A stretch of DNA of 51,018 nt from Geitlerinema sp. PCC 9228 (GTDB lineage: Bacteria; Cyanobacteriota; Cyanobacteriia; Cyanobacteriales; PCC-9228): contig NZ_LNDC01000081.1 in the NCBI RefSeq assembly GCF_001870905.1, positions 19,090 through 70,107 of the forward strand, read 5' to 3'. Positions within the stretch are counted from its first letter, which is position 1, and each line of letters begins with the position of its first letter. This document shows, in pieces, positions 5,777 through 16,090 of this stretch. The position numbers and the translations under genes are program-made. The notes under the pieces are model-generated. The model searched no databases and had not been told where the DNA came from. It saw nothing but the letters and a program-made list of their open reading frames with translations.

Positions 5777-5805
5777 TTGATTTTTTCTTGTTTGCTGGTT
5801 ATAAT
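5777..5805 (+). promoter_or_regulatory. sigma70-type promoter of RNA candidate A
   Basis: TTGATT (5777-5782) and a perfect TATAAT (5800-5805) are separated by 17 bp. The predicted start is near 5812, where sequence homologous to the other RNA copy begins. Confidence 0.7.
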
Positions 5806-5810
5806 TAAGG

Positions 5811-5910
5811 GTGACATAGGACGAGGGGACTCGTCATAAAAAAGGGGGAGTTTAATGAGACACTTCAACCCAAACATCTAACCTGCGCCAAAATAGTTTT
5901 ATTATTTTTG
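5811..5910 (+). ncRNA. small RNA candidate, family copy A
   Basis: About 100 nt with no ORF behind a good promoter. In order: TGACATAGG (5812-5820); a perfect 6-bp hairpin GACGAG-GGGA-CTCGTC (5820-5835); TAAAAAAGGGG (5837-5847); a weaker hairpin; then CCCAAACATCTA (5869-5880) and CCTGCGC (5882-5888). The same blocks in the same order occur on the minus strand at 8716-8786 (copy B), with a different hairpin stem that still pairs. The 3' end is an A/T-rich hairpin CAAAATA...TATTTTTG (5889-5910). It may belong to an already known cyanobacterial RNA family that I cannot name. Confidence 0.6.
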
Positions 5911-6059
5911 CCCTGCCTAGATGTTTGAGCGAAGGAACCCAAACGAACCTTCCCCTCCGGCAGTGGCACCAGAAAATCCCACTTTTTAACTCGAGCAAAA
6001 CTTTCTCCGGTGGAACCTCCTGCAGCAATCCTGCCTAGAATTCCATATGCAATTGTATA
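5890..6059 (-). ncRNA. small RNA candidate, family copy C, convergent to A
   Basis: About 170 nt behind a well-spaced minus-strand promoter (6066-6094). Its 3' part carries a GAAGG...CCTTC hairpin (5931-5952), then CAAACATCTA (5927-5918) and GGCAGGGCAAAAATAA, matching the 3' block of copies A and B. The 5' part is unlike A and B. It runs head-on into copy A, and the two CAAACATCTA cores form a 10-bp inverted repeat (5871-5880 with 5918-5927), so both may end at one shared hairpin. A 65-codon frame spans it but resembles no protein I know. Confidence 0.45.
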
Positions 6060-6065
6060 CATTTT

Positions 6066-6094
6066 AATATAGCATAAATTCGCAGTTTTGACAA
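6066..6094 (-). promoter_or_regulatory. promoter of RNA candidate C
   Basis: On the minus strand TTGTCA (6094-6089) and TATATT (6071-6066) are 17 bp apart. The -35 lies just past the stop codon of the Pilin_GH gene, so the transcript would be independent of it. Confidence 0.55.
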
Positions 6095-6110
6095 GAACTT
6101 TTCCAACTAT

Positions 6111-6590
6111 TTATTTAGATCGAATTTTCGTAAAATCAGGCGGACATGCTAGAGGGGAACCTTGCGATCGCCGCGAGGCTACGGCGGGAAATACCTGGGA
6201 AGAAATAGCAATGTCAGTTAGTGCCAGGTCGGTTTTGCAAGTAAGGCTAGAAACGCCGTTGCCGGGGGTACGCACTTCCAACAGAGCGATATAGCTGGGC
6301 AACTGCGATCGTTGAGCTTGTGCCACATGCATCACCAAAGTTTTATCAACAATGCGAATCGTATAGCGATAGGGAGTTTGCTTGTGGAGAGCAATATTCA
6401 AATCCCCAACACTAGAAGCAAAATAGGAATTATCCAAACGATAAGCCTGCTGGCTTCGGTTCATTTTGGTTAAATTTTCCAAAACTTGGGCAGAAGACTG
6501 ACGCTCGCAGCCAAGAATCGTTGCCAGCAAAGCAACAACTGCAAAAAATTGTATCCGGGAAAATCTCCAATTCGTCGTATAGATAGCCAT
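6111..6590 (-). CDS. Pilin_GH-type (type IV pilin-like G/H) lipoprotein
   Basis: A 159-residue exported protein. The N terminus is a signal with a lipobox-like LATILGC (Cys28), so it is probably a lipoprotein rather than a processed prepilin. The mature part has MNRSQQAYRLDNSYFASSVGDL, here spanning about residues 41-62, the hallmark of the cyanobacterial Pilin_GH family, which resembles the globular part of pseudopilins. The role is not settled. I use the ATG at 6590; the frame extends 17 codons further without a better start. It is monocistronic, and RNA candidate C starts just downstream. Confidence 0.75.
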   Translation of the reverse strand: MAIYTTNWRFSRIQFFAVVALLATILGCERQSSAQVLENLTKMNRSQQAYRLDNSYFASSVGDLNIALHKQTPYRYTIRIVDKTLVMHVAQAQRSQLPSYIALLEVRTPGNGVSSLTCKTDLALTDIAISSQVFPAVASRRSQGSPLACPPDFTKIRSK

Positions 6591-6695
6591 TTTCAAAACA
6601 GCGATGGCTGATTGGCTGAAAACTACAAACAAGATCCCCAACCTTCCCCCGACTTAGGAGAAAGTTGGGCGCATCGTCAAGCAAACCAAGACATT

Positions 6696-7310
6696 TTAGT
6701 ATTCAATTCCCATCTGTGCGGGAACACCTTGGCTAACGTGGTGTTTAATGCGGGTCATTTCGGTAACCAAATCGGCAATATCTATGAGAGACTGGGGGGC
6801 GTAGCGTCCGGTACTCACCACATGAGCGTGATGGGGACGGTTTTGAATGGCGGTTTGTATGGGTTCTACCTGCAACTGTGCTTTGTGCAGGGCAACGTGC
6901 AATTCGTCAAGCAACACCAAAGAAATTTCTGGATGGCTGATAAATTGGCTGGCTTGCTGCCAAGCATCTTCCGCCTTTTTCCGGTCGAGATCGGGGTCTT
7001 GGGTTTCCCAGCTAAAGCCGCCACCAAGGGTATAGATTTGTACCGGGAAACCGGCGGCTTGCAATTTTTGCAGCATCATGCGATCGCCGTCGGGGTAGGA
7101 ATGGGAATCTTTCACAAATTGCACCACAGCTACTGGTCGTTCGTGGGCTAAATGGCGGTATACCATATTCATAGCACTGCTGGTTTTGCCTTTGCCCAGG
7201 CCGGTAAATAAAAGATACAATCCTTTTTCGTTACCTTCGCGGCGACGGCGTGCTTTGTCTTTTGCCGCTTTGATTTTTTGCAAACGTTCTTTTACGCTTG
7301 GATCGGTCAT
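6696..7310 (-). CDS. cobO: Cob(I)yrinic acid a,c-diamide adenosyltransferase
   Basis: A 204-residue CobA/CobO/BtuR-family enzyme that transfers the 5'-deoxyadenosyl group of ATP to cob(I)alamin precursors. It has the P-loop GLGKGKTSSA (37-46), FVKDSH, the LVLLDELHVAL core and STGRYAP near the C terminus. Length and the charged N-terminal helix match the family. ATG start. No other cobalamin gene is adjacent, and I see no cobalamin riboswitch in the 248 bp upstream. Confidence 0.95.
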   Translation of the reverse strand: MTDPSVKERLQKIKAAKDKARRRREGNEKGLYLLFTGLGKGKTSSAMNMVYRHLAHERPVAVVQFVKDSHSYPDGDRMMLQKLQAAGFPVQIYTLGGGFSWETQDPDLDRKKAEDAWQQASQFISHPEISLVLLDELHVALHKAQLQVEPIQTAIQNRPHHAHVVSTGRYAPQSLIDIADLVTEMTRIKHHVSQGVPAQMGIEY

Positions 7311-7558
7311 TTTACCAATAAAAAGTCAAAATTTCTAAAATTGGTCAATTTGGTTTATGGTAGCAAATTTTTTCTGCTTGACCTAGGTTTTGGGAGAAGT
7401 TCGTTGCTGTAGCCTGGGGTGGCATTTTGGCCGGTTGCCCTATGGGAAAATTGATATGATAGGCATACTGTCTATCCCAGTAGGAATTGGCTGTCAAATA
7501 GCCAACAGGTGGCGCAACGTTCGAGAACCATCAATTTCTTTTTGGCTGGAGGAAGGAA
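7311..7558. other. intergenic region, no gene seen
   Basis: This gap between divergent cobO and the glycosyltransferase-like gene should hold both promoters. I see no consensus -35/-10 pair. A strong GGAGGAAGG ribosome site (7549-7557) sits just before the right-hand gene. Confidence 0.3.
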
Positions 7559-8665
7559 ATGCGATCGCCCAATCCAAACCAGGTTGCCGGGGAACAGCCA
7601 CAAAAGTCGGTTTTGCAAATTATTCCCAAAGTCTCGACGGAGATTTGTTCTGTAAGCAATTATGCCTTTCATTTAGCCAAAAAGCTCTGGCAAGATTCCC
7701 AAATAAGTTCCCATTTTTTGGTCTGCCAAGTCAGCGATCGCGCTTCTGTCACCCAGACAGATTTTCCGGTGCTGATTTTACCACAAAAGACCTCAAAGTC
7801 GTTTTTGGAGCAAATCCCTCCAGAAGTGACTCATATTCTCCTACACTACAGCGGTGCTGCTTATGCCAAGGGAAAAATGGATGCTCCGTTTTGGCTGCAG
7901 GAAGGATTGCAAGCGGTGCGGCGATCGCGGCAGGTGCAAGTTTTGGTCATTTTCCACGATATGCCAGTGGCTGAGTTTCAGCAAATGAAATGGGTTAACC
8001 CCATTGGGGGGATGGTGGCTTATCGCATTGCCCAACAGGCGGATGTGGCGATCGCGTTGAACGTTCGCTTGCAGGCGATTTTAGAAAAATGGTTGCAACG
8101 GGAGGTACGCTGTCTGCCCCAACCAGATTATTTAGAAAAACCACCGATTATTCCTCCTTTGCGCGATCGGTATCGGCGTGCTGTTGTCTTGGGCAGTCAC
8201 TCTCCTCTGCGCTGCCACCAGCAAAAGTGCGATGACGTTGCCCAAACTTGCCGCGATTTAGGGATGCAAGAAATTTATTATATTGCACCTACCTTGCAAG
8301 TACAAGTAGCTGCTTCTCCCCAGTTTGATTGGGTCGATCGAGGAAAAATGCAGCCCAGCGAGATTGGTTGGATTTTGCTTAATGCTTGGATTGGTTTTTT
8401 TAGTGCCAAAACCGCCAGCCACTTGGAACGTTCGGAAACTTTTGCTGCTTACTGCGCCCACGGTGTCGTTCCCATTGGCATGAATGGAGTTCCGGAGACG
8501 GTGGGCTCTCTGAAACGGGGCACCCACTACCTGCAAATTCCGGTGGTGACGAAGACCAATGAAGATCGGCTTCAGGGGGTTGCCGATCGCGCCCACCAGT
8601 GGTATCGCGATCGCTGCTGGCATCGAAATGCCCAATTCGTGGCAGCTCTAATTCAAAAGCAATAG
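7559..8665 (+). CDS. putative glycosyltransferase (GT-B-like)
   Basis: A 368-residue soluble protein. LLHYSGAAYAKGKMDAPFWL (about 93-112), followed by VLVIFHDMPV and a C-terminal HGVVPIGMNGVPE-like segment, recalls family-4 type glycosyltransferases in which a Tyr/Gly-rich loop precedes FHE/FHD. Substrate and product are unknown, and the usual C-terminal E-x7-E donor motif is not obvious, so the class is tentative. The ATG at 7559 has a strong GGAGGAAGG ribosome site 1-2 bases upstream. It is monocistronic, followed by a 7-bp A/T hairpin. Confidence 0.55.
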   Translation: MRSPNPNQVAGEQPQKSVLQIIPKVSTEICSVSNYAFHLAKKLWQDSQISSHFLVCQVSDRASVTQTDFPVLILPQKTSKSFLEQIPPEVTHILLHYSGAAYAKGKMDAPFWLQEGLQAVRRSRQVQVLVIFHDMPVAEFQQMKWVNPIGGMVAYRIAQQADVAIALNVRLQAILEKWLQREVRCLPQPDYLEKPPIIPPLRDRYRRAVVLGSHSPLRCHQQKCDDVAQTCRDLGMQEIYYIAPTLQVQVAASPQFDWVDRGKMQPSEIGWILLNAWIGFFSAKTASHLERSETFAAYCAHGVVPIGMNGVPETVGSLKRGTHYLQIPVVTKTNEDRLQGVADRAHQWYRDRCWHRNAQFVAALIQKQ

Positions 8666-8668
8666 TTG

Positions 8669-8689
8669 TCAATACAAAGTATTGATTTT
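8669..8689. terminator. AT-rich hairpin, possible bidirectional terminator
   Basis: TCAATAC-AAA-GTATTGA (8669-8685) is a perfect 7-bp stem followed by TTTT on the plus strand. It lies 3 bp after the glycosyltransferase-like gene, and also at the 3' side of minus-strand RNA candidate B. Confidence 0.4.
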
Positions 8690-8788
8690 GTCCCCATAAA
8701 TAAAATATTATTTTTGCGCAGGCTAGATGTTTGGGTAAAGGCGTCCCCAAACCTCCCCTTTTTTACGGCAATACTGCCCTATGTCATC
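8690..8788 (-). ncRNA. small RNA candidate, family copy B
   Basis: A minus-strand transcript predicted to start near 8788. In order it holds TGACATAGG (8786-8778), a 4-bp hairpin GGCA-GTAT-TGCC (8778-8767), TAAAAAAGGGG (8765-8755), an AGG...CCT hairpin, CCCAAACATCTA (8735-8724) and CCTGCGC (8722-8716). All blocks match copy A at 5812-5888 in the same order and spacing. The first stem differs in sequence but remains paired, which points to a conserved RNA structure. No ORF. The end is uncertain; an A/T-rich tail or the hairpin at 8669-8685 could stop it. Confidence 0.6.
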
Positions 8789-8792
8789 CCCT

Positions 8793-8821
8793 ATTATAAA
8801 ACTTATCAAAAAAATTGTCAA
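8793..8821 (-). promoter_or_regulatory. consensus sigma70-type promoter of RNA candidate B
   Basis: On the minus strand a perfect TTGACA (8821-8816) and a perfect TATAAT (8798-8793) are exactly 17 bp apart. This is the strongest promoter seen in the window. It lies 25 bp past the stop codon of the M56 peptidase gene. Confidence 0.8.
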
Positions 8822-10274: not shown

Positions 10275-11375
10275 CTAGCAAAATGCTTCTACAATTCGCA
10301 CGATTCTCTGGGCCGCCAAACCATCCCCAAAGGGATTGGTAGCATTTGCCATAGCTGCATAAGCTTGCTCATCAGCCAATAAAGATTGCGCCGCCGCCAG
10401 GATACCATCGCTGTGGGTCCCCACCAACTTGGCCGTTCCCGCCGCGATCGCTTCCGAACGTTCCGTCGTCTCCCGCAACACCAGCACCGGCTTGCCCAAA
10501 CTAGGGGCCTCCTCCTGCAAGCCTCCCGAATCTGTCAAAACCAAATAGCAACCCTGCATCGCCCCCACCAAAGCCTGATAATCCAACGGTTCCGTCAAAA
10601 AAATACGGGGATGGTCTTGCAAAGCTGCCCGCAGGGGGTCGCGAACCTGGGGATTGCGATGTAAGGGCAATAGCAAAGCCGTATCTGCGAAAGCATCGAC
10701 AATCTGGCGCAAGCCTTGAGCAATTCCCCGTAACGTCTTTCCCCAACTTTCCCGCCGGTGAATCGTTGCCAACAAAACCCGATATCGCTGCCAATCCAAC
10801 CCCGGTACCTCGCAGCGGGGATTTCCCTTCGCCACCGCCAGCAACGCATCGATGACCGTATTGCCCGTTTGGTGAATCCTGCCAACAACGCCCGAGTTGC
10901 GTAAATTATCCACAGCCAGTGCCGTAGGGGCAAAATGCAGCTGGGCAATTTGGGAAATCAAGCGGCGGTTGGCTTCTTCCGGGTAGGGATGAAATAAATT
11001 ATTGGTACGCAACCCCGCCTCCACGTGAGCCACAGGAAATTTCTGGTAAAAAGCCGCCAAAGCCGCAGCAAAAGCCGTGGTTGTATCCCCCTGAACCAAC
11101 ACCAAATGCGGTTGAATTTTCGCAAACAGCGATTCCAACCCCGTCAGGCTGCGACAGGTGATATCCCCTAACGTCTGGGAGGCTTGCATAATTTCTAAAT
11201 CGTAGTCGGCGTGCAGTTGAAACAGCTGCATCACCTGAGCTACCATTTCCTTATGCTGTCCGGTTAGAATCACATGGGGACAAAACTGGGGGGACCGTTG
11301 AAACGCAGCAATAACTGGTGCCAGCTTGATAGCTTCTGGGCGCGTTCCGAGAACGATACAAATGGGAAATGGCAT
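10275..11375 (-). CDS. wecB: UDP-N-acetylglucosamine 2-epimerase (non-hydrolysing)
   Basis: A 366-residue GT-B fold enzyme interconverting UDP-GlcNAc and UDP-ManNAc for surface polysaccharides. Landmarks are LGTRPEAIKLAPVI at the N terminus, VQGDTTTAFAAALAAFY, HVEAGLRT, TIHRRESWGK, LTDSGGLQEEAP and VLRETTERSEA. All are standard for WecB/MnaA. The ATG at 11375 is preferred; the frame runs 31 codons further into poorly conserved sequence. No other wec gene is adjacent. Confidence 0.95.
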   Translation of the reverse strand: MPFPICIVLGTRPEAIKLAPVIAAFQRSPQFCPHVILTGQHKEMVAQVMQLFQLHADYDLEIMQASQTLGDITCRSLTGLESLFAKIQPHLVLVQGDTTTAFAAALAAFYQKFPVAHVEAGLRTNNLFHPYPEEANRRLISQIAQLHFAPTALAVDNLRNSGVVGRIHQTGNTVIDALLAVAKGNPRCEVPGLDWQRYRVLLATIHRRESWGKTLRGIAQGLRQIVDAFADTALLLPLHRNPQVRDPLRAALQDHPRIFLTEPLDYQALVGAMQGCYLVLTDSGGLQEEAPSLGKPVLVLRETTERSEAIAAGTAKLVGTHSDGILAAAQSLLADEQAYAAMANATNPFGDGLAAQRIVRIVEAFC

Positions 11376-15659: not shown

Positions 15660-16090
15660 AAACCTCAACACCCCCGGCTGAAGCACGGGGGCTTCATGCC
15701 TCCAGCTTCAGGTAGCTGACCAGCCTAGGTCTTCACTAACTAACTACGTTTTTCAGGTCATGGAACCTACAAATGCTTTCGGTGTTTGTCGCTCTGCCGT
15801 TAACGGTTAAACCGCCCTACCAGGGGGAAGGCAGTGCCGTTAGCCCCACCAGCCCTAAAAACATTGGCGAGGAAAATATGATACCGTACAGGGTAGACGA
15901 TTCCGGCTAAAACACCGAAAGAGCAGAAACTGTACCTCTTTTCGCCCTTTTCGGGCGTGGGGAAGGCAATTCAAGCCGCCGTTCGTGTTTCCTCCCGGTG
16001 CGAAAGCGACAGGGCTTGCAAACGTATCGAAGATTTTCCGCGATCCGGTTAGAATATGCCTTGAGCTATGGGCGACAGCCCCGCGCTCTA
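15660..16090. ncRNA. structured noncoding block, possible omega-RNA or HEARO-like RNA
   Basis: About 430 bp with no plausible protein and strong pairing. CTTTCGGTGTTT (15776-15787) is a perfect 12-bp complement of AAACACCGAAAG (15910-15921), closing a domain that contains the palindrome CCGTTAACGG (about 15818-15827). A further hairpin is CGCCC-TTTTC-GGGCG (15943-15957). On the minus strand it ends in a hairpin like TnpB-element right ends; on the plus strand it sits upstream of the nuclease gene as IscB guide RNAs do. Orientation is therefore undecided. Confidence 0.4.

Follow-up and report, generated by a model that had tools for sequence, protein, structure and literature searches.

The predicted small RNA loci in the window

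The window analysed here is a 51,018-nucleotide (nt) stretch of the 4.8 Mb genome of Geitlerinema sp. PCC 9228, and it carries three copies, named A, A' and B, of a predicted promoter-driven small RNA that ends in a conserved 3' tail (below, the labels C, L and G denote contigs, loci and genomes). Copy A, of type 1 in the classes defined below, lies on the plus strand behind a promoter at 5777..5805 (TTGATT at 5777-5782, a 17-nt spacer and TATAAT at 5800-5805; score 10/12). Its RNA is predicted to start at about 5812 and to run through the tail (5812..5895; covariance model 110 bits). Along this RNA lie the word TGACATAGG (5812-5820), hairpin 1 (GACGAG/CTCGTC, 5820..5835; covariation over 22 copies), the word TAAAAAAGGGG (5837-5847), hairpin 2 (GGGGGAGT/ACTTC..CCC, 5844..5871; covariation, RNAalifold and folding), the words CCCAAACATCTA (5869-5880) and CCTGCGC (5882-5888), and the tail AAACATCTAACCTGCGCCAAAATA (5872..5895), the words and the tail being read directly from the sequence.

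Copy B, of type 2, lies on the minus strand (8709..8786; predicted start at about 8786, running through the tail; covariance model 96 bits), and the promoter scan places a full-consensus TTGACA-17-TATAAT promoter, scoring 12/12, at 8793..8821. Read in the direction of transcription, it contains TGACATAGG (8786-8778), hairpin 1 (GGCA/TGCC, 8767..8778; covariation and reading), TAAAAAAGGGG (8765-8755), hairpin 2 (8733..8758; covariation, folding and reading), CCCAAACATCTA (8735-8724), CCTGCGC (8722-8716) and the tail AAACATCTAGCCTGCGCAAAAATA (8709..8732), with the words and the tail again read directly. The third copy, A', is of type 3 and convergent with A, so that the two stand tail to tail on opposite strands. 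It occupies 5903..6058 on the minus strand (predicted start at about 6058; core model 44 bits, E 8e-11; promoter), with the tail AAACATCTAGGCAGGGCAAAAATA at 5903..5926 (model match and reading), hairpin 2 (GGGGAAGG/CCTTC) at 5927..5955 by folding, and a promoter of TTGTCA, a 17-nt spacer and TATATT at 6066..6094 by the promoter scan. Direct reading shows an A/T-rich element common to A and A' at 5890..5910, between their facing tails.

The initial annotation had described A and B as two loci sharing four words in the same order, each behind a -35/-10 pair with a 17-bp spacer. Every word position was borne out by re-reading, and both promoter pairs are present, that of A being the weaker since its -35 matches the consensus in four of six letters. 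Both loci are real, but the count of two missed A' in the same window and the 46 copies in the genome; the earlier observation is correct and larger than first reported.

Copy number and classes in the genome

Within the 51 kb, single short words were not significant at one to two mismatches (7 found against 6.9 expected; 5 against 4.9). The joint pattern CCCAAACATCTA-N(0-3)-CCTGCGC occurred exactly six times genome-wide and not at all in the backward control; shortened by one letter, it was not found in 59 other genomes of the order. A covariance model built from these six exact copies gave at least 35 matches at E<=0.1 and, with more candidates scored, 41 at E<=1, 22 of which reach at least 65 bits. 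When two mismatches at most were allowed, the 15-nt pattern of the tail matched 142 places (81 in the backward control), of which about 100 were listed and many were not read individually. Fifty-five tail-like places were read; 46 with both hairpin and tail were kept, and nine (C58:7087, two on C85, C20, C31, C69, C107, C65 and C95:62814) were dropped by eye before any count, having no hairpin and no A-rich end and lying mostly inside open frames. A sequence-only core model of the hairpin arm and tail found 48 matches in the genome at E<=0.05, and two late places found with it, C58:11309 and C100:24152, stand outside the 46. On this sequence evidence, the element is a predicted family of about 46 small RNA genes in one 4.8 Mb genome. 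Many related intergenic copies in one genome, the mark of families of the FopS or LhrC type, were found here at 46-48 copies.

The copies fall into three types according to hairpin 2. Type 1 comprises nine copies including A, with GGGGGAGT/ACTYC, and type 2 comprises 13 copies including B, with GGGGAGG/CCTTTACCC. The 24 type 3 copies, A' among them, mostly carry GGGGAARG or GGGGAAAC, a pairing 3' arm and CGCTC, and their 5' part is longer and more varied than in types 1 and 2.

Two local arrangements are of note for the history of the copies. C94 (L050) and C95 (L054) carry similar double arrays: in each, two convergent small RNA pairs stand about 450 nt from one another, and the flanks of the two arrays are shared in part. 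This looks like a segmental duplication. On C149 (L058), the copies at 10660 and 11911 are identical from the loop of hairpin 1 through the tail and have different promoters; the second is without the 5' arm of hairpin 1 and faces a YhaV-type toxin gene (L058:1754-2206). The C149 pair points to gene conversion or to movement of the RNA body.

Promoters

The 200 nt upstream of each tail were scanned for TTGACA/TATAAT at 16-18 nt spacing and scored out of 12. A score of at least 10 was reached by 42 of the 46 copies, against about 1.7 of 46 expected from mononucleotide shuffles of the same DNA; counting also the nine dropped places, which score 7 or 8, it was reached by 42 of 55. The spacer is 17 nt long in 41 of the 46. 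Among the 22 copies of types 1 and 2, we compared the 18 that have a 17-nt spacer, one near-duplicate being excluded, and found a mean pairwise identity of 0.84 for the -35 and 0.76 for the -10, 0.38 for the spacer and 0.26 for the 30 nt upstream. Because the -35 and -10 agree while the spacer and the upstream DNA differ, it seems that selection, and not copying alone, has preserved the promoters. The predicted start of type 1 and type 2 copies lies 52-63 nt before the tail, near a conserved ACATAGG, except in C173, where the scan picked a distant site. Judging by its upstream sequence, each copy would be transcribed from its own sigma-70-type promoter.

Hairpins and covariation

The initial annotation had taken the differing but still pairing stems of the first hairpin in A and B as covariation. 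Two sequences alone prove nothing in this respect; the 22 most similar copies, those of types 1 and 2, do covary. Over their two hairpins 98.7% of cells are paired, against 41-51% in slid controls, and six pairs change on both sides. Double-change cells number 27 against 9.8 in shuffles, and none of 500 shuffles reached 27. Run unguided, RNAalifold proposes the same hairpins on the 22 copies and likewise on the first six. In type 3, reading by eye gave the hairpin 2 stems GAAGG/CCTTC, GAAAC/GTTTC, GAAAG/CTTTC and GAAGA/TCTTC, with GGGGC/GCCCC in C104.

The conserved 3' tail

The tail lies directly 3' of the last hairpin and has a mean pairwise identity of 0.83 over the 46 copies. It starts with AAACATCTA exactly in 38 of them and with one or two changes in the others, and AAAATA follows nine nt past AAACATCTA, at tail positions 19-24, in 41. 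Positions 11-15 read S-C-W-G-S in 42 of the 46 (CCTGC 17, GCTGC 9, GCAGG 8, GCAGC 4, CCTGG 3 and GCTGG 1). This motif is strand-symmetric, and seven of ten facing pairs carry the opposite forms CCTGC and GCAGG.

Part of this conservation could also be read as a short peptide gene, that is, a purine-rich stretch resembling a ribosome site followed by a frame ending in NI-stop: AAAGGGGAGG resembles a ribosome site, and ATC-TAR stands in frame in many copies. Against this, type 2 copies have no consistent ATG in frame by eye, the length of their hairpin 2 varies by single bases (25 to 29), the ATCCA variants lose the stop, and the sequence changes preserve pairing. On the evidence of ATG, length, stop and pairing we reject the peptide reading, which we find scarcely credible.

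Genomic placement and neighbouring genes

Genes were called by a longest-open-frame heuristic, and two of 34 loci (C11:21057 and C45) overlap an open frame of at least 100 codons. The intergenic regions that host copies lie between convergent genes in 19 of 34 cases, against 15 of 130 other regions of at least 150 nt (Fisher 2e-7). Of the 26 copies that have no facing partner, 23 are directed towards a convergent gene (binomial 9e-5). Ten pairs are arranged tail to tail, the tails lying 38-40 nt apart with a common A/T element between them, nine of type 1 with type 3 and one of type 2 with type 3. The tail-to-tail placement points either to a common terminator in the A/T end or to selection against readthrough into a same-strand gene.

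Such placement could also mean that the tail and A/T box work chiefly as a two-way terminator or collision block, with the short transcripts as by-products. The 3' ends of copies indeed face the 3' ends of genes, both in the 19 of 34 convergent regions and in the 23 of 26 single copies, the ten facing pairs stand over their common A/T element, and in other genomes 14 of 22 rows are convergent. A terminator nevertheless leaves unexplained the promoters at fixed spacing, the covarying upstream hairpins and a sequence-specific tail kept across families, and 17 of the 46 tails have no T-run nearby; we regard this reading as rather unlikely.

A different view of the same arrangement would make the copies antisense RNAs that act in cis on the 3' ends of their convergent neighbours, and many copies are indeed directed at a stop codon that lies some 50-95 nt beyond the start of the tail. 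The neighbours, however, have no common function: 18 of 20 neighbour proteins scanned against Pfam were assigned a family, including histidine kinases, MurJ, RmlD, MsrA, NAD kinase, GUN4, ketol-acid reductoisomerase and others. Moreover, it is not their conserved part that would overlap the neighbour, and paired copies face each other and not a gene. We consider antisense action in cis very unlikely; diverse neighbours without a common function fit action in trans.

Distribution in other cyanobacteria

Among 388 genomes of the order, 15 contained the tail pattern with one mismatch, and 11 of these, including this one, were accepted after reading of the flanks; the backward control matched four of 388, with one match each. 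The four that were not accepted were G252 and G371, where the tail has no hairpin by eye, and the orthologous pair G035/G077, with a deviating tail in a coding-looking context. The core model matched 11 of 386 genomes of the phylum, eight of them convincingly, including this genome; the matches in G024 and G060 lie inside open frames of 188 and 199 codons, and that in G468 is doubtful. The accepted genomes span four families: f1 (this genome alone), f6 (G005), f9 with its genus g9 (seven genomes) and f12 (G011 and G081). At E<=0.05 the core model gives 7 matches in G005, 9 in G008, 10 in G096, 7 in G037, 16 in G079, 13 in G193, 16 in G156, 6 in G170 and 3 each in G011 and G081. These matches in the other ten genomes (3-16 each) were partly read, many of those in g9 being unread; the core-model places read were seven in G008, five in G096, two in G081, two in this genome and one each in G024, G060 and G468.

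Twelve g9 places represent 11 distinct ones, and ten of the 11 score at least 10 for the promoter. In one class a GC-rich stem immediately precedes the tail and a T-run immediately follows it. In a scan of one genome per species, which may omit records of the Geitlerinema genome itself, an exact form of the tail was found in Phormidium willei BDU 130791 and in Cyanobacteria bacterium SW_9_44_58. In the latter (L099/L084) 3 nt separate the end of the tail from the ATG of an open frame, which presumably encodes a DUF29 protein. Phages, plasmids and IMG/VR gave no match, either by blastn with B or by the tail pattern in viral contigs.

Across other genomes, a convergent gene is faced in 14 of 22 rows and not in six, with none in reach for two, the rows including orthologues. 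Four g9 paralogues can be followed by their neighbours, whose names are sequence readings. Paralogue i adjoins an ABC-transporter ATPase in six genomes; ii follows an ApcD-like gene in three; iii lies beside an FtsH-like gene in four, with a Dxs-like gene on the opposite side in three; and iv precedes an AspS-like gene in three, with a KsgA-like gene on the opposite side in two. Because these four paralogues keep their neighbours across genomes, the copies appear stable, and not hopping, at the depth of g9.

This bears on the proposal that the copies are a non-autonomous mobile element, similar to miniature inverted-repeat transposable elements or short interspersed nuclear elements, which carries RNA structure by chance. 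The scattered copies, the duplicated blocks on C94 and C95, the presence of the family in few lineages and the C149 pair, whose bodies are the same from the loop of hairpin 1 onward while their promoters differ, would all agree with it. The promoter, however, lies upstream of the shared body, and the spacer and flank are near-unrelated; because the promoter is outside the body, the body would on every move have to land behind an existing promoter with a 17-nt spacer. In addition, copies keep their neighbours among g9 species, which also speaks against an element of the IS200/605 type, and no transposase family was found among the 20 neighbour genes scanned. We hold a mobile element to be quite unlikely.

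A predicted family of trans-acting small RNAs

The initial annotation had proposed a promoter-driven, structured non-coding RNA, and this is still the best reading of the sequence, backed by the 46 copies, their promoters, the covariation and the homologues that keep their place in another genus. Beyond this, we think it probable that A, B and A' belong to a new, strongly expanded family of paralogous small RNAs acting in trans, in which the 3' tail is a shared interaction module. Copy number, promoter sequences, type 1 and 2 covariation, tail conservation across families and tail-to-tail placement are the observations on which this reading is based. Transcription, action in trans and a binding partner of the tail are what we infer from them. 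Each copy would be an RNA of about 85-160 nt made from its own promoter, with a variable 5' part, one or two hairpins and a near-invariant tail AAACAUCUA-N-S-C-W-G-S...AAAAUA. The tail would be the output module that all copies have in common, serving as a base-pairing seed or as a handle for one RNA-binding protein, and the input and specificity of each copy would come from its promoter and body. That so many promoters lead into a single conserved tail suggests action in trans, with one output and many inputs.

Several results weigh against this reading. Type 3 is a residual class with diverse 5' parts, whose covariation was read by eye and not counted. The stability of hairpin 2 relative to shuffles is modest (mean z -1.0, with 18 of 45 below -1, C185 excluded). 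The predicted accessibility of the tail is moderate, with a mean unpaired probability of 0.58 in this genome and 0.49 elsewhere, although an accessible tail is plausible from these folding models. A T-run lies within 18 nt of the tail in 29 of the 46 copies, leaving the 3' ends ill-defined, and in other genomes a promoter score of at least 10 is found in 19 of 36 distinct copies (2.0 expected). Finally, at 323 heuristic translation starts in 451 kb the tail pairs no better than shuffled tails; this test was chosen as the tail complement contains ATG, and the mean, top-ten and minimum duplex energies fell within the range of 60 shuffles.

23S ribosomal RNA (rRNA) was considered as a target of the tail. 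The type 1 tail pairs with 23S GCGCAGGATAGGTGG (L175, C56, near position 2090) at -21.4 kcal/mol, through 13 pairs interrupted by a single mismatch. This value is slightly better than that of the best among 100 shuffles (-21.0) and was not equalled by any of 30 in a smaller set. When five other tails were compared with the rRNA loci, four paired best elsewhere, one of them by just 0.1, and the fifth, that of g9 paralogue iv, prefers the same site (-19.3). The longest perfect match between tail and rRNA is 7 nt, the same as for shuffles. Because most variant tails do not keep the pairing, 23S rRNA was not adopted as the target.

A more specific version of the trans-acting family is a tentative possibility. 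Nearly 50 independently promoted small RNAs might form an RNA hub, presenting one 3' handle to one partner, be it a protein that binds RNA or a hub RNA. Facing pairs could limit each other, and the whole would be a lineage-specific expansion of a handle common to at least four cyanobacterial families. If this were true, it would be the largest paralogous bacterial small RNA family among those compared. The family would also bring these cyanobacteria a considerable level of regulation that is absent from Rfam 15 annotation. Nearly 50 promoter-bearing copies in 4.8 Mb, with one near-invariant 3' module and free variation elsewhere, offer a natural experiment on why bacteria multiply small RNA genes. 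Since the tail is common to copies and families, a single pull-down by the tail in one strain might be enough to identify what the entire system binds.

Relation to known RNA families

The initial annotation had surmised a known cyanobacterial family, and here Rfam 15 (4227 families) gave chance-level matches alone: no credible match was found on 37 of the 46 copies (all but L067-L073, L144 and L145) or on 11 homologous loci. At E<=10 there were five matches near A and three near B, to microRNA and other models (E 2.4-9.6; best 2.4 and 2.6, respectively), all far below the cut-offs. CbSR14 matched the opposite strand of one type 3 copy at 24.4 bits (cut-off 172, E 0.37). Up to E 10, neither A nor B matched Yfr2/Cyano-1 (RF01701). 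A Cyano-1/Yfr2-like RNA containing GTGTGAGGAG lies at a separate locus, C15:12476-12545 (L001:1501-1570, minus strand); its 34.7 bits are below the 41-bit cut-off, and it is the sole candidate in the genome below E 0.9.

HEARO/IscB-type RNA (RF02033) was rejected, as its matches lie off the copies. The genome has 43 HEARO matches at E<=0.001, and one such RNA lies in the window at 15664-15882 on the plus strand (109.8 bits). Two others, L055:1236-1453 (C112) and L062:1207-1423 (C185), begin on the same strand as a family tail, about 150 and 175 nt downstream of where that tail starts, against about 0.2 such cases expected by a rough hand estimate, which possibly reflects a link or a preferred insertion site.

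The hallmark of Yfr1/Yfr10 is the unpaired motif ACUCCUCACAC. This motif is absent from the window, its longer form is absent from the loci examined, and the tail sequence differs, so these RNAs were rejected as well. Unlike NsiR1, which is a single tandem-repeat array, the Geitlerinema copies are scattered. No description of the family was found in the open-access literature, by terms or by tail letters, and the part of a review that was available names no such family (PMC6202907). The best reading is that the family is new and not annotated in Rfam 15.

The following comparisons draw on the available portions of the cited papers. Yfr1/Yfr10 and Yfr2-5 are cyanobacterial trans-acting small RNAs with few copies per genome, and Yfr10-type RNAs have one short motif in common among otherwise divergent, non-syntenic RNAs; the conserved part of Yfr1/Yfr10 acts as a base-pairing seed (PMC6778093). 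The present family is similar in its short motif shared by divergent cyanobacterial RNAs and differs from Yfr1/Yfr10 in the motif itself and in its many copies. A Nostoc survey reported predicted, transcribed small RNAs with several near-identical copies in one heterocystous genome, grouped into families (PMC4734099); by their description they may be related to the present family, although the one-genome-per-species tail scan gave just the two genomes named above. Rhizobial SmelA075/SmelA099 also have several copies per genome, intragenomic spread and shared hairpin and loop motifs (PMC3927594), but they belong to another phylum and architecture, occur on several replicons, with mobile elements near some multicopy families, and apparently have fewer copies.

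FopS of Bacteroides comprises 14 paralogues, with 12-15 per genome in relatives, most of them intergenic with their own promoters; their conserved stretch serves as the seed for pairing with mRNA, and the RRM protein RbpB binds these RNAs (PMC11697453). As in FopS, the Geitlerinema genome has many paralogues with their own, here predicted, promoters and a conserved stretch beside a variable remainder. On these descriptions, FopS differs in that its conserved part is at the 5' end, its phylum is another and its copy number is about one third. The multicopy families compared reach about 15 members per genome in the portions available, whereas nearly 50 promoter-bearing copies are found here in 4.8 Mb. 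By analogy, and without demonstrated membership in any of them, the Geitlerinema family may work like the multicopy families, such as FopS, or like the motif-sharing ones, such as Yfr1/Yfr10.

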